IMG/VR virus record: IMGVR_UViG_3300031707_000239
Location: 1 to 20,205 of that record
Direction: 5' to 3' (one strand)
Origin: a virus
DNA length: 20,205 nt
The position numbers and the translations under genes were made by a program. This document shows, piece after piece, positions 314-11,453 of this stretch (position 1 is the stretch's first letter; every line of letters begins with the position of its first letter). The notes under the pieces are model-generated. The model was not told where the DNA came from and did not search any database. It worked only from the letters and a program-made list of their open reading frames with translations.

Positions 314-1049
314 CGGGAAGTACATCCCACCGCAGTCGGTGCTCGACTACTGGGCGACGTTGGCGACGGTACCATGGTCGCCGGCGCTCTGCCCGCCGGA
401 GGGCGACTGCCGCGGGTTCTACTCAGAGCATCAGCTCGAATGCCCGCACGCGGAGAAGCGCTCATGCCCCAGGCGGCAGGACATCGATCTCGCGCGGAAA
501 CATGAGTGGCTCGCGGGGATCGGGTTTGGGCGGGAGTACTGGGACGTGCAGGGCGGCCGGGTCCGTAGCTCGCGGGAGGTGAACGAGTACTGCCGCCGGC
601 TCTATGGCGGGGGATTGGCGCGGGGCGTGAACGTGTTCCTGTCGGGGGGTGTTGGGACGGGCAAAACCATGGCACTGGCGTGGATCGCGCTCCAGGGGAT
701 GGGGAAGGGCATCCAGCGGCAGGCGCTGCGGGTATACCTGGCGCCGGAGCTGGTCACGTGGTTGGTGGACATGAACCACGACGTCGGGATCCTGGCGGGC
801 CTGGATGTGTTGATGATCGATGACCTCGGGACAGAGCACTGGAGCGCGACGAGCACGTGGGCGGCGGCGCGGATGGGCGAGCTGGTCGAGCGGCGGCACC
901 GGGAGTGGCGGCCGACGATCATCGCGACGAACCTGAGCCCGTGGGACCTCGGGCAGCGTGACGAGTGGAACCGTTGGACGGATCGGTGGTTCAGCCGGGG
1001 CGAGACGATCACGTTCGAGGGTGAGAGCCTGAGAGGGAGGGCGGCGTGA
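261..1049 (+). CDS. DnaC/IstB-like replicative helicase loader (AAA+ ATPase)
   Basis: This is a 262-residue ATPase of the DnaC/DnaI/IstB group, which loads the replicative helicase at the origin or fork. Walker A is GGVGTGKT (residues 129-136), Walker B is LMIDDLG (184-190), and a sensor-like IATN follows at 221-224. The N-terminal part has four cysteines (C44, C50, C61, C69) that could bind zinc, as in the N-terminal domains of DnaI-type loaders. The C-terminal WNRWTDRWFSRG resembles the arginine-containing end of the family. Start ATG 261 overlaps the stop of another frame and is followed directly by good coding sequence. It sits just before a RusA resolvase, the usual place in a phage replication module. 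Helicase loading is inferred from family membership. Confidence 0.88.
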   Translation: MSELERIRDTMRLWKGSDGKYIPPQSVLDYWATLATVPWSPALCPPEGDCRGFYSEHQLECPHAEKRSCPRRQDIDLARKHEWLAGIGFGREYWDVQGGRVRSSREVNEYCRRLYGGGLARGVNVFLSGGVGTGKTMALAWIALQGMGKGIQRQALRVYLAPELVTWLVDMNHDVGILAGLDVLMIDDLGTEHWSATSTWAAARMGELVERRHREWRPTIIATNLSPWDLGQRDEWNRWTDRWFSRGETITFEGESLRGRAA

Positions 1050-1546
1050 GCGACCTGTGGCGGTGCGGGTTTGAGGTGCTGGGCGAGCCGGTGGGGAAGC
1101 CGGCGGCCAGGGCTATGGTGGTGCAGCGCGGCAGCCAGTACGTCGCGATCCTGCGGGAGGCGGACCGGGAGCATCCGATCCATCGGTGGTCGGGGTGCAT
1201 TCGGAGCGCTGGCCTACCCCACCGGCTCGATGAGCCGTTCGCGGGGGCGCCGCTGCAGGTCACGCTCACGTTCCTGATGCCGCCGCCGCAGACGATGGTC
1301 CGGCATGGGCGGCTGCTGCGGACGTGGCCGATAACCAGGCCGGACACGGACAACCTCTGCAAAGCGGTCCTGGACGCGCTGACGGAGCTGCTCTGGGCGG
1401 ACGACAACGTCGTGGTGCGGCTCGCGCTGGAGAAACGGCACGCGCAGCCGGGGACGCTGCCGCGGTGCCAGGTGCGGATCGAGGAGTTGCTCGACCCGCT
1501 GGCGCCGCGGGATGTGGGACAGTTGGCGATGGAGGTCACGGGATGA
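1046..1546 (+). CDS. RusA-family Holliday junction resolvase
   Basis: The 166-residue protein carries the RusA signature RPDTDNLCKAVLDAL (residues 98-112) followed by LWADD (116-120). D100, D102, K106 and the D119/D120 pair match the metal-binding acidic and basic residues of the family, which cleaves four-way junctions as a dimer during recombination or before packaging. The start is GTG 1046 inside the GTGA overlap with the helicase loader stop, so the two genes are translationally coupled. The length is slightly above the roughly 120-140 residues common for RusA because of an internal loop around residues 40-60 and a C-terminal tail. Family assignment is firm; the exact substrate is inferred. 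Confidence 0.9.
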   Translation: MSDLWRCGFEVLGEPVGKPAARAMVVQRGSQYVAILREADREHPIHRWSGCIRSAGLPHRLDEPFAGAPLQVTLTFLMPPPQTMVRHGRLLRTWPITRPDTDNLCKAVLDALTELLWADDNVVVRLALEKRHAQPGTLPRCQVRIEELLDPLAPRDVGQLAMEVTG

Positions 1547-1779
1547 GCGACGCATGGCGGCGGGTCACGGAGGGGTTGGACGAGATCGAGAAGGGGCCGG
1601 TGGTCGAGGGCGGGTGGCAGGCGCTGCACCGGATCGCGGCGCGGGCGGAGACGATATCGAAGCTGATGCAGCACCGGGAGAACAGGGAGGTGCGGTGTTG
1701 GCATCGGGCGACGCGGATGGAGACGGGTGGCGAGGTGTGCATCCAATGCGGGGCGGTGGTTGGCAATGACAGTCGCTGA
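1543..1779 (+). CDS. Small zinc-finger-like hypothetical protein
   Basis: This 78-residue protein begins at ATG 1543 in an ATGA overlap with the resolvase. The N-terminal half is helical and acidic/basic (DEIEKGPVVEGGWQALHRIA). The C-terminal half has CxH (C52, H54) and CxxCG (C66-C69), consistent with one zinc ribbon. Small zinc proteins of this kind are common in phage early operons and may bind nucleic acid or a host protein; no specific role can be assigned. Its stop lies 14 nt inside the next gene, csf1, so it belongs to the same transcript as the type IV module. Confidence 0.7.
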   Translation: MSDAWRRVTEGLDEIEKGPVVEGGWQALHRIAARAETISKLMQHRENREVRCWHRATRMETGGEVCIQCGAVVGNDSR

Positions 1780-2491
1780 TCTGCTGGTCGGAGGGCTGGA
1801 AATCCCGGAATTCGTGGGGAGCGAGTGCCCGGAGGGAACGCGTTGCGTTGTGACAGGCGAACGGATCACCAGCGGGGTACCGAGTGGTGAGGTCATCACG
1901 TCCGCGACGACCGAGTTTCTCGACGGGTTCCGTGGCGGCGTTGACGGGTGGGTAAGCATCGGCGCGGCCCGGTGTTTCAGGAGCGCGGCGCCGAAACTCG
2001 GGAACCCATGCGGGAAATCAACGCTGGCATTCGAGGACAGGGCGGCGTGGCAGCCACTCATCAACGCCGAGTCTGCGGTGAAGCAGGGGCGGCCATACTG
2101 GAGCGCTGTCGCACGTGATGTATGGCCGGCACATGCCGGGCAGCGGTGCTTTTGCCTGCTGACGGTAGATACCAAGAAGCGGCTTTGGCATAAGGGCCGC
2201 GTCGGCATCCTCGGCCCCGGTATGGTGGCCTACATCCACGATGGCGATGTGAGCATGAATGCCATGCTGTCATGGCCCGAGATGCTCAGGTGCCTGGATG
2301 CCGTTGAGCAGACATACACGCTCGGATGGAGCAAGCGAGCCATCGAGCGGGGCCTCTACTCCCAGCATACGCAGGTCGAGTCGGTGGGTATCCGCGAGGC
2401 GCGCCGACTGGAGAGAATGATCGTAGCGTGGCGCGGGACGAACGAGATGCGCTTCGCGCTGCTCATCGCACAGAGAGGGGATAGGGCATGA
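1766..2491 (+). CDS. csf1: Csf1-like protein of a type IV CRISPR effector module
   Basis: This 241-residue protein resembles Csf1, the diverged large-subunit (Cas8-like) component of type IV complexes. It has four cysteines placed as a zinc site (C21, C27 in CPEGTRCVVTG, then C70 and C82). Its C-terminal half contains LLTVDTKKRLWHKGRVGILG (131-150) and a later LGWSKRAIERGLY stretch (187-199), features I associate with Csf1. ATG 1766 was chosen because it starts at the end of the preceding gene (14-nt overlap); GTG 1727 in the same frame would add 13 residues. The stop overlaps the csf2 start (ATGA). Followed by Cas7-, CysH- and Cas5-like genes, the context strongly supports the call. Sequence alone is weaker because Csf1 diverges fast. 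A role in target DNA recognition is inferred from the Cas8 relation. Confidence 0.68.
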   Translation: MTVADLLVGGLEIPEFVGSECPEGTRCVVTGERITSGVPSGEVITSATTEFLDGFRGGVDGWVSIGAARCFRSAAPKLGNPCGKSTLAFEDRAAWQPLINAESAVKQGRPYWSAVARDVWPAHAGQRCFCLLTVDTKKRLWHKGRVGILGPGMVAYIHDGDVSMNAMLSWPEMLRCLDAVEQTYTLGWSKRAIERGLYSQHTQVESVGIREARRLERMIVAWRGTNEMRFALLIAQRGDRA

Positions 2492-3918
2492 TCGACACAC
2501 CGATCATCATTCGGCCAAGCACGACCACATACGAGCTGCTGCTGACGTCGACGCAGCAGGTCTCGCACCATGACCCGGCAGTGCAGGATGAGTCGAACAG
2601 GATGCTCTTCAACCGGCGGAAGCAGATCGTGGAGGACCCTCGGATGGAGTCGGAGAGGGCGCTCTCCCAGGAGGCGATGGACCGACTCTGCGCTGCGAAT
2701 CCGGCGCCTGAGTCGGTGGCGGAGATGCTGGCCGACATCACAGGCGCAGAGTTCATCGCGGTGGTGGTCGTTCGGCAGTTCGTGGACCTCTATACGGGAC
2801 TGAACGCGGGAGACGGGGAGGGGCTGTTCTCCGGACTGGAGCGGTACCGGCACCTCGAAGAACGGCTGCGCCATGCGGCGACCTCGGCGAGCACACTACT
2901 CGGGTTTTGGAACAGGCTCTGCGACACGCTGCAGGTCGGCATCCACGGCTGTGACGCGGATGCCGCGCTGCTCTCGGTGCTCGGGTTGCCGAAGCCAACA
3001 CAGGCGGTGGTACTGGAGGCATTGGCGACACAGTATCGGAGCGTTGTGTCGCTGGCGCGGTTCTGGCATGGGACCGCGGTCGCGGCGCGGCGGAGCGAGG
3101 ACCCGGAGCCGACCGTAGTGCTGAGCTACGATGCGCAGTCGGCGACCGGCGGAACGGCGACGCGGGCGCAGGTGCTGGAGGTCCCGGCGATCTCGGGGAA
3201 CTCGGTCCGGCATCAGGTGCTGCGTGAGCCGGCCTGGTATCACCTCGCGGAGCACCTCGGCCTGCGGCCAGGGATGCCCGGGCAGGGCGATGTGCCGGCA
3301 TCGGTCGAGGCGCTCTTCTACAACGGCGGGAACATCGCGGCGGGCGCGAAATCGCCGACGAACGCGCATCGGCTCGCGCAGGACATTCGGGCGGCATACC
3401 CGTCCATCGACCTGCTCGGTGGCGTGGTGAACGCGTTCGACCTCGGGGCGTCACGGGTGCAGGTAGCGGCCTGGCTGGTGTGCTCGGAGAACGCGGCGGC
3501 GCTTGGGGAGCGAGCGGCGGAACTCCCAGCGGCGAGCCTCAGTGCCTTCGACATCATCGATGATGTAACACTTACGCGGCAGGCCGGGCGGGCCGGTGTG
3601 GGACAGATGATCTGGAGCTTTGAGGCGCTGGCATCCGGCGCACAGGTCTATGTCCGACTGAGCCTTGAACCCTACACACCGGACCTGACGCACGGTGCGT
3701 TCATCGCCGCGGTGGAGACCTACCTCGCGCAGGAGCCGGTGATCGGCGGGATGCGGGCACGCGGGTTCGGCCAGGTGCAGGGTGAATGGCTATGCGGGCC
3801 CGGTGAGGCAAGCTGCTTCCGAGAGGCATACGAGGCGTACCTGGCCGAGAACGTGGAACGGCTGCGGAACGGATTGGTGTTCGGGACTCTCTGCACGGAG
3901 TTGATTGTGTGTAGCTGA
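2488..3918 (+). CDS. csf2: Csf2-like Cas7 backbone protein with large helical insertion
   Basis: This 476-residue RAMP protein resembles Csf2, the Cas7 subunit that polymerises along RNA in type IV complexes. The N-terminal strand and loop (TYELLLTSTQQVSHHD, 14-29, then DESNRMLFNRRK, 34-45) match the Cas7 start. EVPAISGNSVRHQVLREPAW (231-250) resembles its glycine/basic RNA-binding segment. DLLGGVVNAF (308-317) and the glycine-rich IGGMRARGFGQV (419-430) complete the fold. Csf2 proteins are normally about 330-350 residues. The excess here is residues about 46-205, almost all helical and acidic, inserted between the first strand and the rest of the Cas7 core. The start is ATG 2488 (ATGA overlap with csf1), with GAGGGGAT upstream. 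Other RAMP classes are possible, but neighbours favour type IV. Confidence 0.75.
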   Translation: MIDTPIIIRPSTTTYELLLTSTQQVSHHDPAVQDESNRMLFNRRKQIVEDPRMESERALSQEAMDRLCAANPAPESVAEMLADITGAEFIAVVVVRQFVDLYTGLNAGDGEGLFSGLERYRHLEERLRHAATSASTLLGFWNRLCDTLQVGIHGCDADAALLSVLGLPKPTQAVVLEALATQYRSVVSLARFWHGTAVAARRSEDPEPTVVLSYDAQSATGGTATRAQVLEVPAISGNSVRHQVLREPAWYHLAEHLGLRPGMPGQGDVPASVEALFYNGGNIAAGAKSPTNAHRLAQDIRAAYPSIDLLGGVVNAFDLGASRVQVAAWLVCSENAAALGERAAELPAASLSAFDIIDDVTLTRQAGRAGVGQMIWSFEALASGAQVYVRLSLEPYTPDLTHGAFIAAVETYLAQEPVIGGMRARGFGQVQGEWLCGPGEASCFREAYEAYLAENVERLRNGLVFGTLCTELIVCS

Positions 3919-4157
3919 TGCCGCCATTGCACATGACAGACTACTGGGGGCGGCTCACGGGCCGAGAGGAGCAGGTCTTACGGCTACGGCTCGCACTGTT
4001 CAACAATCATGAGATCGCACGGATGCTGAGGATCTCCCCTGTGACAGTGAGGGGGTACCTCAAAGACGGCAAAGCGCGCATCCCCACGGCACGGACGGTG
4101 GATGACTACCTGATCTTGGCGGAGCGATGTGGTGTGCCACCGATGAGGACGATCTGA
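3918..4157 (+). CDS. Small LuxR/sigma-region-4-like HTH protein
   Basis: This 79-residue protein is dominated by a helix-turn-helix: LTGREEQVLRLRLALFNNHE (13-32), then IARMLRISPVTVRGYL (33-48), the pattern of GerE/LuxR-type DNA-binding domains (a TxREEQVL helix and a recognition helix PVTVRGYL). There is no receiver or ligand domain, so it is a bare DNA-binding module. ATG 3918 overlaps the csf2 stop as TGATG; ATG 3933 is an alternative that removes five residues. Its stop overlaps the cysH-like start in the same way, so it is made as part of the type IV operon. It could autoregulate the operon or act in phage transcription; neither is shown. Confidence 0.75.
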   Translation: MPPLHMTDYWGRLTGREEQVLRLRLALFNNHEIARMLRISPVTVRGYLKDGKARIPTARTVDDYLILAERCGVPPMRTI

Positions 4158-4945
4158 TGACCGCGATGGAGCGCAGTGCGCATCTCATCCATGCACGGTC
4201 GCCGCTGTTCCAGCGCCGGTTGGAGCAGGCGGATGCCTGTGTGGATGAGATGCTGCGCACGGCGCAGCATCCGTATGTGGCGTGCTCGTTTGGGAAGGAC
4301 TCGACGGCGCTGCTCTGGGTGGTTGCGCAACACTGGCCGGGGGCCCGCGTGCAGTGCCTCACTGGTGGGGAGTCGCGGCTTCTGCACAGCGAGATCGACG
4401 AGCACAGCGCATGGTGGCGGCGCGAGTTCCCGCTGATGCACCTAGCCGAAGTGAAAGTGGATCACGTGTTCTCGGATGAATGGTCGGAGGCTACATTCGA
4501 GGAGCAGTACCTCAGCTTTCATGCGTCACAACTCGGCACAACCGAATGGGCAGCCTATCTCCACAGCTCTGCCGACTGGGACGGAGTGTTCCTCGGCCTG
4601 CGGTCGGACGAGTCGTTCAAGCGCGCGGTACAGAACTCCGCGCGGGCGCGGGGATGCGTGACGCCAATCCGGCGGTATTCCGAGGCGCGGACCGATGCCG
4701 CCGCTGGGATGTATGTGGCCTGTCCCCTGGCGCTCTGGACCGATGCGGACGTCGCGGCGCTAATAGTGAGCCGAGGGTTGCCACTACTCTCGACCTACAA
4801 GCGGGATGGATTCTCGGCGCGGACAAAGCTGCGCCTGGGGAAGACCGCGATGGATCTCGGACAGGTGGAGGAGCTTCGCCGGCGTGATCCGGCGGCATAC
4901 AACCGGCTGCTACAGCGGTTCCCGGAGTTGGGAGGCAACAGGTGA
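4157..4945 (+). CDS. cysH: CysH-like PP-loop protein of the type IV-B kind
   Basis: This 262-residue member of the PAPS reductase/ATP-pyrophosphatase (PP-loop) superfamily has the PP-loop SFGKDST (44-50), the downstream GLRSDESFKR motif (147-156) and CPLALWTDADV (189-199), all typical of CysH relatives. The C-terminal ECGxH motif carrying the catalytic cysteine of true PAPS reductases is absent: the last 60 residues contain no cysteine. It therefore probably activates a substrate by adenylation rather than reducing PAPS. A cysH-like gene is a recognised companion of subtype IV-B systems, which is the main reason for that subtype call. ATG 4157 is chosen because it overlaps the HTH stop (TGATG); an upstream ATG at 4127 would add 10 residues with poor coding character. 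The gene is coupled to csf3 by GTGA. Confidence 0.82.
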   Translation: MTAMERSAHLIHARSPLFQRRLEQADACVDEMLRTAQHPYVACSFGKDSTALLWVVAQHWPGARVQCLTGGESRLLHSEIDEHSAWWRREFPLMHLAEVKVDHVFSDEWSEATFEEQYLSFHASQLGTTEWAAYLHSSADWDGVFLGLRSDESFKRAVQNSARARGCVTPIRRYSEARTDAAAGMYVACPLALWTDADVAALIVSRGLPLLSTYKRDGFSARTKLRLGKTAMDLGQVEELRRRDPAAYNRLLQRFPELGGNR

Positions 4946-6003
4946 GCTATCACCTCACTGACCATGCCATCGCACGATACCGGGAACGAGTCGAGCCATG
5001 TGCATCAATCGGCAAGGCTGCGACCGAGATACTGCGGGCGCTCGAAGTGCCAGTGCGGGTCTGCCAAGGGCGACGTGGGGCAGTGATCCATGGGCTGCGG
5101 AATAGCGTGGGCACTGAGTTTGCGGCGGTGGTGATGCCGGTCGGCTCTGAGCGTTCGCTGCCGCAGGTGGTGATGGTCGGTGAGTGGTGGGCATTTCGCG
5201 AGCTGAAGGACGGATGGCGTGAGCGACGCACCCGGGCGCGACAGGCAGGAAAAGGAGTGCATTGGACGATGATCGAGCAGGTCGAACTGCAGCTATATGA
5301 GGCGCGCTATGCGGAGATCGAGACCCAGCCGCTGCGGGTGACGTGCTACCTCCGCCCGGGCGGGAACCTCTGCGGGTACGATGCGCCGTTCCTCGATAAC
5401 ATCCTGGCGTGGGCTGTCGTGCGCGAGGCAACGCAGGGGGCCGGGCTCGCGGGGAGCCAACAACCATACGCGCTCCCATTGCCATTGCGATGCCTCTGGC
5501 GAGACGAGGAGGGGTTGCCGCTCTGGGCGGCGACACAGCTACAGCCCACGGGGCTCGTGGAGCAGGATGTGGCGTTCTACCACAAGCGCCCGCCGGAAGG
5601 GCGGTACACCAAGACGAAGAGCGGCCGGTTCGCGCCAACCCCGCAGGAAGGGCGTTGGGCCGAACGGCGCATCCCGACCCCGTGCGTGGTGGCGCAACGG
5701 TGGACCGCGACCTGCGATGGAAACGCGGATGAGATCGCGCGGCTGCTCCGTGGCATCGGGTACGTCGGGAAACACAAGGGGGCCGGCCACGGTGAGGTCG
5801 AGCGGTGGGAGATCGAGCCCGTCGCAGAGTTCCGGCTGGTGGAGAGCGGGCGCCTGACTCGCACAATGCCACGGGCGGCAGCGGAGATCATTGGGGTGCC
5901 GGCGCCGTTCGGTGAGGCAGCGCCTGTGGGATGGACGCCGCCACAGTGGAAGCCGTCATTGTTCGCGGACGGTTGGTGGGCAGGCGCCATGACCGGGGGA
6001 TGA
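4942..6003 (+). CDS. csf3: Csf3-like Cas5 protein with extra N-terminal domain
   Basis: This 353-residue protein consists of two parts. Residues about 115-300 resemble Csf3/Cas5 of type IV: a leading strand LRVTCYLRPGGNL (131-143), LPLPLRCLWRDEEGLPLWAA (178-197), the aromatic/basic AFYHKRPPEGRYTKTKSG segment (211-228), and the glycine-rich IGYVGKHKGAGHGEV (272-286) that matches the G-loop of Cas5 RAMP proteins. Residues 1-105 are a separate domain starting LTDHAIARYRERVEP (5-19), a pattern I have seen in stand-alone small phage proteins. The start GTG 4942 overlaps the cysH stop (GTGA). A second in-frame start, ATG 5269 (residue 110), follows AAAAGGAG and would yield a 244-residue free Csf3. 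Cas5 normally caps the crRNA 5' handle; here no array or Cas6 is present, so the bound RNA is unknown. Confidence 0.75.
   Translation: MSYHLTDHAIARYRERVEPCASIGKAATEILRALEVPVRVCQGRRGAVIHGLRNSVGTEFAAVVMPVGSERSLPQVVMVGEWWAFRELKDGWRERRTRARQAGKGVHWTMIEQVELQLYEARYAEIETQPLRVTCYLRPGGNLCGYDAPFLDNILAWAVVREATQGAGLAGSQQPYALPLPLRCLWRDEEGLPLWAATQLQPTGLVEQDVAFYHKRPPEGRYTKTKSGRFAPTPQEGRWAERRIPTPCVVAQRWTATCDGNADEIARLLRGIGYVGKHKGAGHGEVERWEIEPVAEFRLVESGRLTRTMPRAAAEIIGVPAPFGEAAPVGWTPPQWKPSLFADGWWAGAMTGG
5250..5271 (+). promoter_or_regulatory. Candidate internal ribosome binding site within csf3
   Basis: AAAAGGAG (5250-5257) lies 11 nt upstream of the in-frame ATG 5269, exactly where the N-terminal domain ends and the Csf3-like part begins. 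It could allow a separate Csf3 product, as internal starts do in several cas genes. The spacing is slightly long. Confidence 0.4.
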
Positions 6004-6004
6004 C

Positions 6005-6772
6005 GTGCAATGCGAACGGCTGACAGACGAGCAGGTGGTCGAGCGGGCGCAGGCCGGCGACGGCGACGCGGCGGAGTGGCTGCTGCGGAAGTACCGGGGC
6101 ATCGTGGTCTACAAGTCGCAGTCGATCTTCATGCGCGGTACGGAGCGGGATGACATGATCCAAGAAGGCATGATCGGGCTGTTCAAGGGCATCCGGGACT
6201 TCCGTCCCGACCGTGACTGCTCGTTCCGAATGTTCGCCGACCTCTGCATCACGCGGCAGATGATCACGGCGGTGAAAGGAATCGGGCCGGACCAGCTCCT
6301 GCTGGTGTTCGCGAAGCCGCTGATGATGCGGGACCCGGAAAACGCAGGGCGGTCGGGGCGGCGCCATCGGACGGGTGGAGGGGGCCTGGGGCGAGAGATT
6401 GACCCGCCGGGGGAACGGACGACGGAGGAGATCGCCGTCGGGCGGATGGAGGCGCGGGAGAAGCTCCGGCTGCTCCAGGAGGTCTGCACCCCCTATGAGT
6501 GGCAGGTGGCGAAGCTGTTCGGTGAGGGGAAGAGCTACCAGGAGATCGACGCGACGATCGGGAGTGTTGGGCCTCATGGGCGGGACGGGGTGAAGGGGAC
6601 GGACAATGCGCTGGTGCGGGTGAGGCGGAAGATTGCGAAAATGGGGGAGGAGGTGATGGTCGGTGAAGTGGATGCGGGACATAGTCGAGATCCGGGAATG
6701 GGTCACCGTTTGGGTGGTCCGCAAGCCACGGAAGAAGAGAGGCAAGAAGCGCAAGTGAACGCCGACGCCTGA
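6005..6772 (+). CDS. Sigma-H-like RNA polymerase sigma factor
   Basis: This 255-residue sigma-70 family protein is closest in pattern to Bacillus-type sigma-H. Region 1.2/2 runs LTDEQVVERAQAGDGDAAEW (6-25), RDDMIQEGMIGLFKGIRDF (48-66) and SFRMFADLCITRQMITAVKG (73-92). Region 4 is TPYEWQVAKLFGEGKSYQEI (162-181), then GTDNALVRVRRKIAK (198-212). A glycine/arginine-rich linker (residues 115-140) replaces the usual inter-region segment. The C-terminal 40 residues after region 4 look non-conserved and overlap another small frame. GTG 6005 is the only reasonable start, 1 nt after the csf3 stop. Its position just before the terminase genes suggests it directs host polymerase to late phage promoters; that is inference. 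Confidence 0.87.
   Translation: MQCERLTDEQVVERAQAGDGDAAEWLLRKYRGIVVYKSQSIFMRGTERDDMIQEGMIGLFKGIRDFRPDRDCSFRMFADLCITRQMITAVKGIGPDQLLLVFAKPLMMRDPENAGRSGRRHRTGGGGLGREIDPPGERTTEEIAVGRMEAREKLRLLQEVCTPYEWQVAKLFGEGKSYQEIDATIGSVGPHGRDGVKGTDNALVRVRRKIAKMGEEVMVGEVDAGHSRDPGMGHRLGGPQATEEERQEAQVNADA
6648..6657 (+). promoter_or_regulatory. Near-perfect Shine-Dalgarno AGGAGGTGAT
   Basis: AGGAGGTGAT is complementary to the 3' end of 16S rRNA over 10 nt. It lies inside the sigma gene, 5 nt before GTG 6663 and 14 nt before ATG 6672 of a different frame, and so marks a real internal initiation site. Confidence 0.6.
6663..6758 (+). CDS. 31-residue basic small protein overlapping the sigma gene
   Basis: GTG 6663 opens a 31-codon frame, different from that of the sigma gene. 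It begins MKWMRDIVEIREW, continues with a hydrophobic VTVWVVR stretch and ends in a lysine/arginine tail (KPRKKRGKKRK). ATG 6672 is an alternative start (28 residues). The near-perfect Shine-Dalgarno at 6648-6657 is placed correctly for either start, and the sigma frame here no longer encodes recognisable sigma sequence. The short amphipathic or membrane-proximal segment with a cationic tail could bind nucleic acid, membrane or polymerase. No homologue is recognised and the function is unknown. Confidence 0.5.
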   Translation: MKWMRDIVEIREWVTVWVVRKPRKKRGKKRK

Positions 6773-6782
6773 CAGGAATGCC

Positions 6783-7304
6783 ATGGAAACGGCAATGGAG
6801 CGGAAATCCGATGGATGGAAGCCCTGCAACGCGCGGACCCGGTCGGGCGGGCGATGTAAGCTCGCCCCGACACCGGGGAATGCGCGTTGCCGCTTCCATG
6901 GCGGCCGAGCGGGCCGCCCGATCGTGCATGGGGCGTACTCGAAGCTGCTGCGGAAGCGGCCGGGGTTCGGGGAGTACCTCGACGCGGTGGCCGGCCTGCA
7001 GGCGGAGCATGGGTTGTCGATGGGGCCCGAGATCGAGACGCTACGGGCGCGGTTGCTTGAGGTGCAGGCGTCGGGCAACGACCCGCAGGCGGAGGCGACG
7101 CTCGCAGGAGTGATCGATAAGCTCAGGCGGAGTGAACAGGTGCTGGCGGGGCTCGTATCGCGAGAGGACGCGCTGGAGGCGATGCGAGCGGTGATGGGGT
7201 GCATACATGGTCACGTGGATGGCGCCACTTGGGACGCGATCTGCATCGATCTCGCTCGAAGAGGTCTTGGGCGAGTGCGTGCCATTGGAGCCGCCGACGA
7301 CTGA
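6783..7304 (+). CDS. Terminase small subunit-like protein with zinc knuckle
   Basis: The N-terminal motif CNARTRSGGRCK (15-26), then C36 and HGG (39-41), followed by GRPIVHGAYS (44-53), is typical of phage proteins annotated as small terminase-like or HGG-motif proteins encoded next to the large terminase. The rest is helical (LQAEHGLSMGPEIETLRARL) and could oligomerise. The length of 173 residues fits a small terminase. ATG 6783 has AGGA 6 nt upstream. The 3' end overlaps the large terminase start by 98 nt, unusually long for this genome, so either this protein or the downstream gene may in reality be shorter. Recognition of packaging-site DNA is inferred from position. Confidence 0.7.
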   Translation: METAMERKSDGWKPCNARTRSGGRCKLAPTPGNARCRFHGGRAGRPIVHGAYSKLLRKRPGFGEYLDAVAGLQAEHGLSMGPEIETLRARLLEVQASGNDPQAEATLAGVIDKLRRSEQVLAGLVSREDALEAMRAVMGCIHGHVDGATWDAICIDLARRGLGRVRAIGAADD

Positions 7305-8883
7305 GCGGCTCGGGCTCGCCGAGTGGGCTGAGGCGCACCGGGTGCTCGATGGACGGGTGTTCTCGTTCCGCGGGCATGAGTACCTGCGCGAGCTGTATGA
7401 CGATGCCCAGGACGCGCGGCATGTCGTGCTGATGAAGGGCAGTCAGATGGGGGGCACGGAGTACGCCCTCTCGCGGGTGCTCTGGATGCTCGACACCGAG
7501 GCGCAGGCCGGCCGGCGCCGGCGGGCGATCTACTACTTCCCGTATAGCTCGGACGTGATGGACTTCAGCCGCGACCGGTTCACGGCGGCGGTGAACGATT
7601 CGCCATACCTGGGCAGCATCGTGGGGCCGGAGCTGGGCGCGATAAATCGCGCCCCTACGGGGGATAGGCCAGGGGCGATCCGGGAGAGCTCGGTGCAGGC
7701 GTTGAGGAGTGTGAGGGGATCCCGGCTGTACTTCCGGGGGATGCTCTCGAGGGGCTCGCGGATCGGCGAGACGGGGGCGATGAAGGTCAAGAGCATCCCG
7801 GGCGATATGCTGGTGTTCGACGAACTGGACGAGGCGCCGCAGGCAGCGCGCGAGCAGGCGATCGAGCGGGTCGGGCACTCGGACCTGCGATGGGTGATCG
7901 AGCTGTCGACGCCGACGTACCCGGGTAGCGGTATCGACATCCCATGGCAACAGTCGGACCAGCGGCACTGGCACCTCGACTGCCTATGTTCGGACGGATG
8001 CTGCGTCGATGACGCGTTCCCGGCGTGTGTGGACGATACCGGGGAGCTTCGTTGCCCTGCGTGCAGTGAGGTGCTGGATCGCGCCGAGGGACATTGGGTC
8101 GCACACGCGGAGAGCGAGATCCGAGGGTATCGGATCAGCCAGCTCTACAGCTCGACCCATGGGCTGCGCGGGATCGTGGAACGGTACCAGGCGCCCGGCG
8201 ATCATCAACAGGTGATGAACCATGCGCTCGCACGGCCGCATCGGGATGGGACGCGGACGCCGTTCCCGCGGGAGTTGGTCGAGGGATGCTGCCGACCGCG
8301 GGAGATGGAGACCTCGGGGACGCGGACCTACTGTGGGATCGACGTGGGGAGCGATCTGTTCTACGTGGTGATCGCGAGCCGCGGGGCGGACGGCTCGATG
8401 CAGGTGATCTGGGTCGGCGAAGTGAGCACGGCGACGGACGAGCATGGGGCGCCGGCCGAGCTGTATGAGGTGCTGAGCCGTTACGATGTGGCTGTCGGAG
8501 TCGTTGACGCGCAACCGGAGACCCATACGGTGCAGCGGATCATCCGGGACCATCCGAGCCGGATGGTGCGGTGCCGGTATGAACAGCAGCATGTCCGATC
8601 GGAGTGGCAGCACTCCAAGCGGACGGTGTGCACCGACCGGACGACCTCGCTCGATGACCTGCGGACGCGGTATGTGGCCGGCGGGATCGAACTGCCATCG
8701 CCGCAGATCCCGGCGATGCAGACGCTCATCGCGCACCATGCGGCGTTCGCGATCGAGTACGTCGAGAGCGGGCAGACACGGGTGCAGCGGAAGGTGTACC
8801 GAGACACAGGGGCGGATCACTTCGCCCATGCGGTCAACTACTGCCACATCGCGTTTCAGCGGCCGACGCCGGGGGTGGCGTGA
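7207..8883 (+). CDS. terL: Terminase large subunit (packaging ATPase-nuclease)
   Basis: This 558-residue motor cuts and pumps DNA into proheads. The GpA/TerL-type N-terminus AEWAEAHRVLDGR (38-50) is followed by a variant Walker A, KGSQMGGTE (77-85), and Walker B MLVFDELDE (201-209) with catalytic E. A CxxC pair (C283, C286, with further cysteines at 261-266) may bind zinc. The RNase H-like nuclease has D379 (CGIDVGSD), D434 (VVDAQ) and D537 (GADHFAHAVNY). The start is uncertain: ATG 7207 gives the longest form, while GTG 7279 gives one 24 residues shorter. Residues about 144-152 (AINRAPTGD) come from an in-frame stem-loop repeat inserted in the ATPase domain. The stop overlaps the next gene as TGATG. 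Confidence 0.9.
   Translation: MVTWMAPLGTRSASISLEEVLGECVPLEPPTTERLGLAEWAEAHRVLDGRVFSFRGHEYLRELYDDAQDARHVVLMKGSQMGGTEYALSRVLWMLDTEAQAGRRRRAIYYFPYSSDVMDFSRDRFTAAVNDSPYLGSIVGPELGAINRAPTGDRPGAIRESSVQALRSVRGSRLYFRGMLSRGSRIGETGAMKVKSIPGDMLVFDELDEAPQAAREQAIERVGHSDLRWVIELSTPTYPGSGIDIPWQQSDQRHWHLDCLCSDGCCVDDAFPACVDDTGELRCPACSEVLDRAEGHWVAHAESEIRGYRISQLYSSTHGLRGIVERYQAPGDHQQVMNHALARPHRDGTRTPFPRELVEGCCRPREMETSGTRTYCGIDVGSDLFYVVIASRGADGSMQVIWVGEVSTATDEHGAPAELYEVLSRYDVAVGVVDAQPETHTVQRIIRDHPSRMVRCRYEQQHVRSEWQHSKRTVCTDRTTSLDDLRTRYVAGGIELPSPQIPAMQTLIAHHAAFAIEYVESGQTRVQRKVYRDTGADHFAHAVNYCHIAFQRPTPGVA
7635..7660. repeat. Stem-loop repeat, GGGCGC...GCGCCCCTACG family
   Basis: Perfect 9-bp arms GGGCGCGAT and ATCGCGCCC surround a 2-nt loop (7635-7654), followed by the conserved tail CTACGG. 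It is in frame inside the terminase ATPase domain. Relatives: 15249, 18086, 18340. Confidence 0.85.
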
Positions 8884-9137
8884 TGGTGCGACGAACGAGA
8901 CTGATGGTCCCGTCCCCCCCCCCCTCGGTCCCCCCCGCGAACGGGGGGGAGGGCGGATTGCATCGGACGTACTGCCCGGCGTGTGGGCGGCGGGGATGCG
9001 ATGTCGCGGGCGATGTGGCACGAGTCGTGGAGCCATGCCGGAGATGTGGGAAACTGGTCGAGGTGGTTGTACGCGGTGAGCGGCTAGAGGTAAACTTGAC
9101 CTGTCAGACGAATACCTCTGGCGACGAACACAACTAG
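8883..9137 (+). CDS. Com-like small zinc-ribbon protein
   Basis: This 84-residue protein has CPACGRRGC (31-39) and CRRCGKLVEV (52-61), two CxxC knuckles spaced as in Com-type phage zinc ribbons. In Mu-like phages Com activates translation of mom, but no mom-like gene is in this window, so that role should not be assumed. ATG 8883 overlaps the terminase stop (TGATG); GTG 8880 is an alternative. Residues 11-25 (proline- and glycine-rich) are encoded by an inserted stem-loop repeat, so about a sixth of the protein is repeat-derived. The C-terminus (TCQTNTSGDEHN) lies in a locally less GC-rich stretch holding an inverted repeat. Confidence 0.7.
   Translation: MVRRTRLMVPSPPPSVPPANGGEGGLHRTYCPACGRRGCDVAGDVARVVEPCRRCGKLVEVVVRGERLEVNLTCQTNTSGDEHN
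8911..8955. repeat. Stem-loop repeat, poly-C/GCGAAC/poly-G family
   Basis: Arms CCCCCCC (8930-8936) and GGGGGGG (8943-8949) flank the loop GCGAAC, preceded by a second C run and CTCGGT. It lies in frame in the Com-like gene. The same family occurs at 11819 and 15875. Confidence 0.85.
9086..9119. promoter_or_regulatory. 7-bp inverted repeat, possible operator
   Basis: AGAGGTA (9086-9092) and TACCTCT (9113-9119) are perfect inverted arms 20 nt apart, in the least GC-rich spot of the late region, at the 3' end of the Com-like gene. They might form a protein site or a weak RNA stem. Function unknown. Confidence 0.3.
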
Positions 9138-9174
9138 GACCCAGCGCCCCATTCGGACCTATGCGTCCACCAGC

Positions 9175-9210
9175 GGGCCTGACCTCCGGTGACGGAGGCG
9201 GGTCCGTTTT
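9175..9210 (+). terminator. Hairpin with GTGA tetraloop and T tract ahead of portal
   Basis: CCTCCG (9183-9188) and CGGAGG (9193-9198) pair around GTGA, a GNRA-type loop. The stem continues outward with one bulged A through 9175-9181 pairing with 9199-9205, including two G-T wobbles, then G and TTTT (9207-9210). This is the form of an intrinsic terminator, although the U tract is short. It separates the packaging genes from the portal gene, so it may attenuate rather than stop late transcription. The hairpin also excludes GTG 9189, which lies in its loop, as a likely portal start. Confidence 0.6.
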
Positions 9211-9227
9211 CGCTGTGTGGGGTTGGC

Positions 9228-11453
9228 ATGGGCCTGCTGGGTCGGACAGCCTACGCGCTCTTTCCCAACGTGACGGAGCGTTTCCGCAGCGGTAGCGCGG
9301 CACGAGTCCGCGCCCTACAAGCGGGCGGGGTGCCCGGCATGACCAGCAGGCCCGGCACTCCATCGATGCCGCAGAGTGCGAAGTACAACGACTTCGCCCG
9401 GGCGATGGAGCAGGCGATCTGGCTCTCGATGTCGGTATCGGTGCTCGCGCAAAAGGCGGCGGACCTGCCACTGAAGGTCTACCGCCCCGGGCGCGGGGGC
9501 GAGCGGGAGGACCTCGGACCTGACCATCCGCTGCTCCAGCTCCTCTGCACACCGAACCCCGTTCATCCCGGCATGCTGTTCGACGAGATGATCTACAGCT
9601 ACATCCTGCTGGGCGGGGCGGCCCCGATCTACGTCGCGGCGTCGCGCGGGGGTGGCCCTGGGGAGCTGTGGCCATTGCGGCCCGACCAGGTGTGGGTCTA
9701 CCCGAGCGCGACCCAGTGGATCGACCACTACGAGCATCGGGTGGGGACGACGATCACGCGGTATGCGCCCGAGGAGATCATCCTCCTGCGGACCGCGCAT
9801 CCGCAGCAGGAGTACTTCGGGCTGGCGCCGGTGCAGCCGCTGGAGGGCGTCGTCGCGCTCGACCTCATGGCGCGGACATGGAACATGGCCACCTTCCAGA
9901 ACCACGCCGGCTCCGCAGGGGTGTGGAGCACCGACGACCCGATGATGACTGCCGATCAGGCGCGGGAGATCGAGGCGCACATCGACGAGAAGTTCAAAGG
10001 GCCGGCCAACGCAGGGCGGTCCCTCGTGGCGTGGGGTGGGATGCGGTTCACGCAGGCCGGGACGACCGCGCGGGACATGGAGTACTCGGCGCTGCTCGAC
10101 CGGGTGCGGGATACCCAGACCAGCGGCTTGCATGTGCCGCCGATCATGGCCGGGCGCACCGAGAACGCCAGCTATGACAACGCGACGACGCAGATCAAGC
10201 TCTTCTATGCGAACGGCGTGAAGCGGCTCACCAACACCAGCGACGCCGGGTACAACCACGCGCTGGCACCGAAGCCTCTGGGTTGGCCGCGATCCATTCT
10301 GAGCAAGCCATACCAGGGGCTGATCGTGGAGACCGACTTCAGCGGCGTGCCCGAGCTGCAGGAGGACCAGGAGAAGTTGGAGCGGATCCGCGACCTGAAG
10401 CTACGGAACTGGACGAGCACGATCAACGAGATCCGGGCGGAGCGTGGCGAGGGTCCTGTTTCGTGGGGCGACGAGGCATGGGGCTCGATGTCGAATGTGC
10501 CGCTGGGGACGAGTTGGTCGCTGGGGGGCGGTGGAGGCGCGGCATTGGCTGCGAGGAGCAGGGGCGGGCCGGACATCGCCCGCTTCGCGGGCTCGTGCGG
10601 CCCCTCCGGTTGCCACCGCAAGGTGAGGTTGCGGTTCCTGCCGGAGCGGCGGATCGAGCTGTGGTTCAAATTCGCCGGGGGGCTGGAGCGGCAGCAGCGG
10701 CTGATCGGCGGGGTGTTCGCGCGGCTGTATGCGAAGCTCGCGGCGGACGTCGACGTCGAGGGGGACGTGCCGTTCGCGCTCGACGCGTGGCGGAAGCGGT
10801 TCGCCGCCGACGGACTGCCGGTGATCCGGGATGTGCTGCAGGCGGGTGCGCAGGAGGGGCTCAATCAGGCGAACGAGCTGACGGGGCAAGAGGCGGCGGC
10901 CTCGGTAGGTGGGCCGGGTGGGACCCCTACCCCACGCGGCCCCTCCAGGGGGATCGCGAAGGCGTTCGACATCGCGCCGACGATGATGGTCGAATTCCTG
11001 CGGCAGCGGGAGAACAAGCTGCGCGGGTTGGCGGACACATCGTATGACGACCTGAAGGCGTCACTGGTGCAGGGGCGCGAGGCGGGCGAGAGTGTCGAGT
11101 CGCTCCGCGGGCGAGTGGAGAAGGTGCTCGGGCAGAGCGTGGTCGATCAGGACCTGGATGCGCTCGTGGGGTGGCGTGCGGAACGGGTCGCGCGGACGGA
11201 GACAATCGGGGCCAACAACCAGGGCGCGCTGTTCGGATACGAGATGAGCGGCGCGGTGGATGGTAAGGAGTGGCTCGCGACACAGGACCCGCCCAGATCG
11301 CGCGAGGAGCATGATGCGATCGATGGCATGGTAGTCGGGCTGGACGAGGCGTTCGATGTGGGGGGCGAGTCGCTCGAGTTCCCGGGCGACCCGAATGGCA
11401 GCCCGGAGAACATCATCAACTGCCGGTGCTCAATCGCGCCGGTCGTGATGTGA
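9228..11453 (+). CDS. Portal protein fused to Mu-F/SPP1 gp7-like head protein
   Basis: This 741-residue protein joins two virion functions. Residues about 50-430 are an HK97-type portal (FARAMEQAIWLSMSVSVLAQ, YSYILLGGAAPIYV, PPIMAGRTENASYDNATTQ at 304-322, FSGVPELQEDQEKLERI). Residues about 465-741 are a Mu gpF-like minor head domain, with RAERVARTET (650-659), then SREEHDAIDG (691-700), FDVGGESLEFPGDP (709-722) and the terminal NCRC (731-734). The junction (430-465) and a second linker (560-575) are glycine/proline-rich and include stem-loop-repeat sequence. ATG 9228 is preferred over GTG 9189, which lies in a hairpin loop. Portal forms the dodecameric DNA channel; the F-like domain usually assists head assembly. 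Such fusions exist in other phages. Confidence 0.88.
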   Translation: MGLLGRTAYALFPNVTERFRSGSAARVRALQAGGVPGMTSRPGTPSMPQSAKYNDFARAMEQAIWLSMSVSVLAQKAADLPLKVYRPGRGGEREDLGPDHPLLQLLCTPNPVHPGMLFDEMIYSYILLGGAAPIYVAASRGGGPGELWPLRPDQVWVYPSATQWIDHYEHRVGTTITRYAPEEIILLRTAHPQQEYFGLAPVQPLEGVVALDLMARTWNMATFQNHAGSAGVWSTDDPMMTADQAREIEAHIDEKFKGPANAGRSLVAWGGMRFTQAGTTARDMEYSALLDRVRDTQTSGLHVPPIMAGRTENASYDNATTQIKLFYANGVKRLTNTSDAGYNHALAPKPLGWPRSILSKPYQGLIVETDFSGVPELQEDQEKLERIRDLKLRNWTSTINEIRAERGEGPVSWGDEAWGSMSNVPLGTSWSLGGGGGAALAARSRGGPDIARFAGSCGPSGCHRKVRLRFLPERRIELWFKFAGGLERQQRLIGGVFARLYAKLAADVDVEGDVPFALDAWRKRFAADGLPVIRDVLQAGAQEGLNQANELTGQEAAASVGGPGGTPTPRGPSRGIAKAFDIAPTMMVEFLRQRENKLRGLADTSYDDLKASLVQGREAGESVESLRGRVEKVLGQSVVDQDLDALVGWRAERVARTETIGANNQGALFGYEMSGAVDGKEWLATQDPPRSREEHDAIDGMVVGLDEAFDVGGESLEFPGDPNGSPENIINCRCSIAPVVM
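9295..9318. repeat. Stem-loop repeat, CACRAGT-loop family
   Basis: Arms GCGCGG (9295-9300) and CCGCGC (9308-9313) surround CACGAGT and are followed by CCTACA. It is in frame near the portal N-terminus (AARVRALQ). Relatives: 14714 and 19943. Confidence 0.8.
10578..10607. repeat. Stem-loop repeat with GCGGCCCCTCC tail
   Basis: GCCCGC-TTC-GCGGGC hairpin (10578-10592), then the tail GCGGCCCCTCC (10597-10607). It lies in frame at the junction of the portal and Mu-F-like domains. Confidence 0.65.
10918..10946. repeat. Stem-loop repeat with GCGGCCCCTCC tail
   Basis: GTGGG (10918-10922) and CCCAC (10931-10935) form a short stem followed by the same GCGGCCCCTCC tail as at 10597 and 19298. It encodes a proline/glycine linker inside the Mu-F-like part. 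Confidence 0.55.

Follow-up and report, generated by a model that had tools for sequence, protein, structure and literature searches.

The virus record IMGVR_UViG_3300031707_000239, whose entire contig of 20,205 bases has been analyzed (the window, possibly only a fragment of a phage), contains an operon coding for a type IV CRISPR core, Csf1, Cas7 (Csf2) and Csf3, together with a CysH-like enzyme. The small subunit Cas11 is a domain within Cas7, and the enzyme next to the core is exchanged for other enzymes in related loci. The interpretation that we favour, with slightly less than even confidence, is that of a phage-encoded, array-less ribonucleoprotein (RNP) derived from subtype IV-B, which would work with a nucleic-acid-modifying enzyme, modifying rather than cutting. 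The original prediction, made from the sequence alone, had proposed Csf1-, Csf2/Cas7-, CysH- and Csf3-like genes in one coupled operon; open reading frames (ORFs), profiles and gene junctions bear this out at approximately the same coordinates. We add to it a helix-turn-helix (HTH) gene at 3918-4157, the Cas11 domain, an N-terminal domain in Csf3, a family of 21 loci and the enzyme exchange.

Exchange of the enzyme beside the Cas core

Viral contigs have been scanned with Cas7, Csf3 and Csf1, and genomes have been scanned too. After removal of repeats, near-identical copies and the truncated locus L023, 21 distinct Cas7 loci are obtained, including the window, 19 of them in virus contigs. All 21 have an enzyme beside the core, placed between Cas7 and Csf3 in 12 loci and after Csf3 in nine. 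In 16 of the 21, this enzyme is CysH. The window gene (4157-4945, + strand, with an alternative opening at 4127) codes for a PP-loop enzyme with the motif SFGKDS and matches Pfam PAPS_reduct (8.9e-7, above the cut-off).

Other enzymes are found in the remaining loci. L013 has a DNA methyltransferase (N6_N4_Mtase 9.1e-18, DPPW intact), L004 a B12-binding radical SAM enzyme (Pfam Radical_SAM 7.6e-12; NCBIfam TIGR04013 6.3e-16, below cut-off; CxxxCxxC intact) and L025, a stretch of 3.8 kb, a glycosyltransferase after Csf3 (phrog_854 1.3e-16). L020 and L070 lack CysH: Csf3 is followed by a protein with the motif DSGAF or DSGAY, with a mutual identity of 41-42%. Glycosyltransferases may also adjoin CysH, as in L012 (2.5e-8), L015 (2.7e-6), L071 (1.4e-10) and, by eye, as a fragment in L019.

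The exchange occurs between close relatives. For example, L013 and L016 are 66% identical in Csf1, 72% in Cas7 and 65% in Csf3, with a methyltransferase in the former and CysH in the latter between Cas7 and Csf3. The pair L004 and L005 (Cas7 60%, Csf3 58%) has a radical SAM enzyme and CysH, respectively. In L075 and L076, the identities are 90% for Csf1, 94% for Cas7 and 86% for Csf3, yet 36% for CysH, which indicates a faster turnover of the enzyme cassette than of the Cas core; a cupin-like gene next to CysH in L075 is absent from L076 (L075 4938-6001; L076 5303-5998). The Cas7 tree joins L013 with L016 (100/100), L004 with L005 (100/99) and L020 with L070 (98/94), so a minimum of three switches to or from CysH is required.

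We have used 19 virus records (821,713 bases summed) as a control set. PAPS_reduct is present in 15 of them, always in the Csf operon, and the operon gene is its sole match in the window record. G413 contains a further copy some 1 kb outside the operon, and two rows of G414 correspond to one gene. The four records without PAPS_reduct are exactly L004, L013, L020 and L070, those with another enzyme. The phrog_854 glycosyltransferase is found in two of the 19 records, both times adjoining the operon.

The PP-loop motif is SxGKDS in 14 of the 16 CysH proteins and SxGADS in two. The latter belong to the related loci L071 (6660-7553) and L074 (6678-7550), whose motif SFGADS has alanine in place of lysine; they are perhaps inactive or have an altered chemistry. 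No cysteine is invariant among nine aligned CysH proteins, and the conserved catalytic cysteine of a bona fide phosphoadenosine phosphosulfate (PAPS) reductase is absent from this alignment. Our CysH profile also recognizes CysH proteins close to Csf loci of plasmids (L084, 5.8e-37) and of haloarchaea. A second, larger CysH-like gene is found in L074 on the opposite strand (8699-9829, - strand), about 1 kb beyond the operon. L080, a Natrinema plasmid, has a haloarchaeal type IV-like operon (727-11398) with two CysH-family genes and a gene annotated as Gp37/Gp68 nearby. In L004, a TET-associated glycosyltransferase (5282-6118; Pfam TAGT 8.7e-49) lies downstream of Csf3, before a terminase.

The proteins of L020 (12168-12860) and L070 (6723-7475) share the motifs DSGAF/Y and GAGWD, a motif-level lead which suggests that they are possibly base-exchange enzymes. 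We have rejected their assignment to TGT/DpdA: The TGT Pfam family matches neither record, and the hhalign comparison with a phage DpdA-type protein (12% probability) is driven by the motif. A sequence comparison with PDB gave no credible match.

Cas11 is nested inside Cas7

Cas7 of the window (2488-3918, + strand) has 476 amino acids, compared with 287-300 for the Cas7 genes at four plasmid loci. The extra part is predicted as an all-helical stretch within the Cas7 fold, approximately residues 61-202 (2668-3093, + strand). This insert is present in 19 of the 21 loci, all except L077 and L078. The PADLOC type IV Cas11 model PDLC01695 matches six of 13 members (best 2e-8), other Cas11 models match two to four. 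At the sequence level, L078 is the decisive case for considering the insert as Cas11: A stand-alone ORF of 199 amino acids matches the insert part alone of the fused profile (2.8e-22), and the following ORF matches the Cas7 portions that flank the insert. A profile of the insert only matches four of the five stand-alone small genes assigned to Cas11 by position (1.8e-23 in L078, then 7e-7, 5.9e-6 and 7.7e-6), the best score for any other protein of those loci being 0.25. The small haloarchaeal gene of L080, also Cas11 by position, is not matched by this profile (3.2). In L077, the contig ends where cas11 would lie.

In the window, Cas11 is a domain within Cas7, not a separate gene. The separate cas11 gene which serves as a criterion for subtype IV-B is present in L078 and absent from the window. 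Nesting reduces the complex to three core proteins, a convenient number for reconstitution. The Cas7 frames of L070 (4664-6037, N-terminus) and L078 (5051-5716, C-terminus) look interrupted, by assembly error or decay.

Type IV identity of the Cas proteins

The type IV identity of Cas7 and Csf3 is firm, that of Csf1 is weaker. The PADLOC typeIV_Cas7 model matches the window protein (2e-25) and all 13 family members scanned, this one included; NCBIfam csf2 also matches (8.5e-5, below the curated cut-off). The AlphaFold model of Cas7, made from five sequences, has a mean predicted local distance difference test score (pLDDT) of 70.1 and a predicted template modelling score of 0.60. It aligns with type IV-A Csf2 (8rc3_D: Z 15.4, root-mean-square deviation (rmsd) 4.9, 253 residues) and with type IV-B Csf2 (7jhy_a: Z 12.2, rmsd 4.9, 226 residues); Foldseek is weaker by itself (best E 1.7e-3). 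Csf3, which is Cas5-like (4942-6003, + strand, core at about residues 128-350), matches PADLOC typeIV_Cas5 (2e-25) and NCBIfam cas5_csf3 (9.9e-10, below the curated cut-off). Its model (mean pLDDT 76.1) is matched by Foldseek to 8rc3_F (E 1.2e-11) and aligns with the solved 8rc2_F (Z 17.5, rmsd 3.4, 200 aligned). A two-sequence Csf3 profile also matched nitrile hydratase chains (best 6.7e-6, profile positions 286-350), a local match which we consider due to chance because the fold comparison gives Csf3. The original prediction would fall if Csf2 and Csf3 lay outside the RAMP families; profiles and structure predictions place both inside.

Csf1, the type IV Cas8-like large subunit (1766-2491, + strand; alignment A10), matches the PADLOC model Csf1_0_IV (typeIV_Cas8) at 0.0025, and this model matches only one other of 12 family members (1e-9). 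Comparison of its profile with PDB found no relative by sequence, with one unrelated row (0.26). The weak profile match, the gene position and co-conservation point, weakly, to Csf1. In alignment A10, Csf1 of the group of the window lacks the CxxC zinc-finger cysteines kept in L020, L071, L075 and L077 (CVVTG instead of CAICG).

Csf3 of the window begins with about 109 extra residues (4942-5268, + strand), in frame and coupled to CysH. This N-terminal domain is also found in L021 (40% identity, alignment A14), and the other 11 Csf3 proteins of alignment A11 do not have it. Its predicted order is alpha-alpha-beta4-alpha, in a block with a pLDDT of 39-60. It matches phrog_8252, of unknown function (2.7e-4), and no family in Pfam or NCBIfam; the last viral scan returned the record of L021 alone. 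Its arrangement resembles that of small RNase-toxin folds (DUF4258/BECR), which in view of the low confidence of the model is no more than a lead.

The small HTH protein (3918-4157, + strand) is LuxR/sigma-region-4-like (Pfam GerE 1.6e-6, above cut-off). HTH proteins in or at the operon are above the Pfam cut-off in the window, L013, L015 and L016. In L002 (weak PADLOC rows) and in L012, where the best score of 3.8e-4 is below cut-off, the HTH is joined to the N-terminus of Csf1. In L004, L005 and L096 it is recognized by eye.

Related loci and classification

Two of the 21 loci do not come from virus records: L011, a 4.2 kb contig from a Chloroflexi bin according to its title, and the genome stretch L025, from the same phylum. 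Both may still be phage DNA. A scan of the genome collection gave L011 as its single locus, and 400 genomes of its phylum gave eight matches, two strong (L011/L024 and L025) and six weak (L026-L031, 1.8e-4 to 6.9e-4). In the plasmid collection, Cas7 of L002 found two weak haloarchaeal Cas7 matches and Cas7 of L078 none. Among the proteins of the phage collection, no match was obtained for Cas7, for the N-terminal domain of Csf3 or for the DSGAF protein. Contigs with 99-100% identity in the compared protein have been counted once (L003, L006 and L007 as L002; L069 as L005; L072, L073 and L092 as L071), and so have refetched records, such as L009, L014, L017, L049-L058, L062-L068, L079, L086-L091, L093-L095 and L098. 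L023/L061, with a truncated Csf1 and Cas7 (L023 4471-5228), is apparently a decaying copy of the operon and was dropped from the counts.

A Cas7 tree of 26 rows, including a single IV-A row, groups the 21 family rows together (100/99) and separates them from plasmid IV-B. L077 and L078, the unfused pair, are placed among the fused rows at low support (82/72), and the deeper branching order is unsure owing to long branches. The phylogeny of Csf2 which had been suggested as a check thus shows a group of its own, and with one IV-A row and long branches it leaves the subtype unsettled. The classification as IV-B-like with CysH stands as far as profiles, structures, CysH and the lack of an array are concerned. 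In the strict sense the window is only a candidate member of IV-B, since its cas11 sits within cas7 and the tree leaves the subtype undecided.

Arrays and missing CRISPR genes

No CRISPR array is found in the window: The sole close direct repeat consists of two 24-nt copies, 79% identical, within an ORF. The array script was applied to 80 sequences totalling 979,258 bases, overlaps included; it did not extend to the complete contigs of L070, L071, L074-L078 and L096. Repeats flagged in L013, L032, L035, L044 and L078, and two-copy repeats in L005, L034, L037 and others, are coding or tandem repeats, judging from their spacing and context. Among loci fetched later, the two-copy test alone (17 loci, without L082 and L085) flagged only L097, a IV-A plasmid stretch. 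DinG (PF13307), the criterion for subtype IV-A, is absent from all 19 virus records, and 11 of 14 controls are positive. Neither Cas1 nor Cas6 is above the cut-off in the window record and 18 relatives; each has one sub-threshold row, that of Cas6 falling on Csf3 of L070. The absence of array, Cas6, DinG and Cas1 noted in the original prediction is therefore confirmed by repeat checks and profiles. For array, Cas6 and Cas1 it holds for the record of 20 kb, not necessarily for the whole phage. Rfam finds nothing in the window, L002, L004, L005 and L011, which have no tRNA either.

Phage context

The operon is part of a run of genes on the + strand, as defined by ORFs and family searches. The run starts with a DnaC-like helicase loader (261-1049; PHROG 50 1.1e-17; NCBIfam PRK08116 6.6e-16, below cut-off), followed by a RusA Holliday-junction resolvase (1046-1546; Pfam RusA 1.6e-15; PHROG 140 8.5e-24) and a small cysteine-containing ORF (1543-1779, from an internal ATG of ORF 1324-1779), which overlaps both the RusA stop and the start of Csf1. 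Csf1, Cas7, HTH, CysH and Csf3 come next, with the junctions ATGA, TGATG, TGATG and GTGA; these overlaps make the genes look translationally coupled. After Csf3 we find a SigH-like factor of the sigma-70 family (6005-6772; Pfam Sigma70_r2 5.1e-10; NCBIfam SigH models, best 4.5e-42, below cut-off), the terminase large subunit TerL, a phage hallmark (7207-8883; PHROG 675 6.2e-91), and the portal (9189-11453; 1.1e-82). GC content per kb is level across the window (0.63-0.70), with no sign in it of a join of two sources. These genes, the level GC and the presence of relatives in virus contigs agree with the placement of the operon in a tailed-phage genome.

Comparison with known systems

The type IV-B effector of actinobacterial plasmids (the Csf complex of Mycobacterium sp. 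JS623, PDB 7jhy) has the same set of Csf1, Cas11, Csf2 and Csf3, with a CysH-like gene, and like the window it has neither array nor Cas6. In plasmid IV-B, Cas11 has a gene of its own immediately before Cas7 (L081, L083 and L084, by position and insert profile), whereas it is nested in the window. The present family also differs from plasmid IV-B in being phage-borne, in its own Cas7 group of 21 rows and in its exchangeable enzyme, and Csf3 of the window has an extra domain. Type IV systems on viruses and prophages have already been published (PMC10848311 and PMC11656645, in the parts available), and PMC9723712, likewise in part, reports one virus contig with csf2-csf3-csf4. The IV-B locus of Fuxivirus, a tailed virus of Bathyarchaeia, likewise has virus-borne Csf1, Cas7, Cas5 and CysH. 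It differs in belonging to an archaeal virus and in having a mini-array, and the available part of its description (PMC10848311) mentions neither a nested Cas11 nor enzyme exchange.

Cas7 and Cas11 are also found in one polypeptide in Cas7-11 of types III-E and III-I (PMC12669027, available part). There, several Cas7 domains and Cas11 form one effector, while the window has a single type IV Cas7 with an internal Cas11 and separate Csf1 and Csf3. DndC of the Dnd system is a PP-loop enzyme of the PAPS reductase family like CysH, with weak similarity (0.015 for the window, 1.3e-6 for CysH of L002). In contrast to DndC and other PP-loop enzymes, the CysH proteins aligned here have no invariant cysteine and are linked with a CRISPR-like core. 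We have found no earlier description of a nested Cas11 in type IV or of CysH exchange in the literature, seen partly in extract; the surveys PMC7038947 and PMC8658065 lay outside the search and may hold one.

Proposed mechanism and alternatives

By analogy with the solved IV-B complex, the Cas7/Cas11 and Csf3 subunits would assemble as a filament on RNA. The complex would deliver the enzyme (for CysH, a PP-loop protein of the ATP-using type that lacks a conserved cysteine) to nucleic acid that it binds or pairs with, and this nucleic acid would be chemically modified, not cut. The likely purpose would be to put marks on nucleic acid of the phage or of its host, as part of the struggle against rival elements or host defence. 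That the complex works with such an enzyme is inferred from the enzyme position. The exchange of enzymes beside the core, several of the substitutes being of kinds that act on nucleic acids, suggests from sequence comparison a system which modifies nucleic acids and does not cleave them. In the available part of PMC8175902, Taylor et al. 2021 describe CasCysH without a catalytic cysteine and propose modification of RNP-bound nucleic acid; the exchange pattern gives independent comparative support, not proof, for this guess. A more specific form, which we consider somewhat unlikely, is a CRISPR-derived, RNA-directed modification machine: a compact type IV RNP, with Cas11 built into Cas7, by means of which phages would place chemical marks. 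Its chemistry would depend on which enzyme occupies the exchangeable position (PP-loop/CysH, glycosyltransferase, methyltransferase, B12-radical SAM, possibly base exchange). Guide-RNA-directed RNA modification follows a comparable logic.

Several points weigh against modification by such a complex. Phage operons carry unrelated cargo, and the contact between enzyme and RNP is deduced from gene position. No guide or array is known for the system. The PP-loop lysine is replaced by alanine in two of 16 CysH proteins. N6/N4 methyltransferases are common in these phages (eight places in seven of the 19 records, one of them in the operon), so the methyltransferase swap alone could be chance. B12-radical SAM enzymes act on many substrates, and the DSGAF protein has no family match (none in Pfam and PHROGs for that of L020, none in NCBIfam for those of L020 and L070). 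For the plasmid loci L081 and L083, a six-frame search finds no CysH within about 4 kb, so CysH is not a constant neighbour of the Csf core; L084 and L080 do have CysH.

The filament might instead be a sponge which coats and removes host guide RNAs or other small RNAs and blunts RNA-guided defence, the enzyme being secondary. According to the available parts of two papers, the RNA bound by the solved IV-B complex is heterogeneous and not of CRISPR origin (PMC7937560), and a sponge function has been put forward (PMC8175902); no array or Cas6 has been found in the window record. We regard a sponge as unlikely: It leaves unexplained why an enzyme is retained beside the core in 21 of 21 loci, yet exchanged for other kinds. 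Methyltransferase and glycosyltransferase genes are familiar phage cargo for DNA modification. The enzymes might modify the own DNA of the phage against restriction, independently of the Csf proteins, sharing the operon as early cargo. Such a role would fit the N6/N4 methyltransferases found elsewhere in these phages and the two of four plasmid IV-B stretches without nearby CysH. It is quite improbable in view of PAPS_reduct, confined to the operon in the 19 records save for one extra copy about 1 kb away, and of the other two plasmid stretches, in which a CysH matching the same profile lies near the Csf genes.

Silencing guided by host CRISPR RNAs (crRNAs) in trans, in which the array-less effector would be directed at defence genes of the host or at rival elements, has only a small chance of being correct. 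Type IV-A acts by guided repression and the array-less III-G is thought to use trans guides (PMC11656645 and PMC12669027, available parts), but there is no Cas6 or DinG in the 19 records and no array was found. The single IV-B complex tested showed no enrichment of co-resident crRNAs (PMC7937560, same limitation). The original prediction had suggested an RNA-binding filament turned against competing elements or host defence, or a tool using host crRNAs; these two functions alone do not explain the enzyme exchange.

Significance for type IV systems

The function of IV-B, and why most of these systems keep CysH, is a question posed in PMC7937560, PMC8175902 and PMC11656645, in the parts available. 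The replacement of CysH by another enzyme next to the same Cas core, seen among close relatives, is comparative evidence on this question, and several of the replacing enzymes belong to nucleic-acid-modifying types. Side-by-side tests are possible with the pairs L013/L016, L004/L005 and L075/L076. If the system is an RNA-directed modification machine, a change of enzyme would be the response of phages to hosts that come to recognize the mark.

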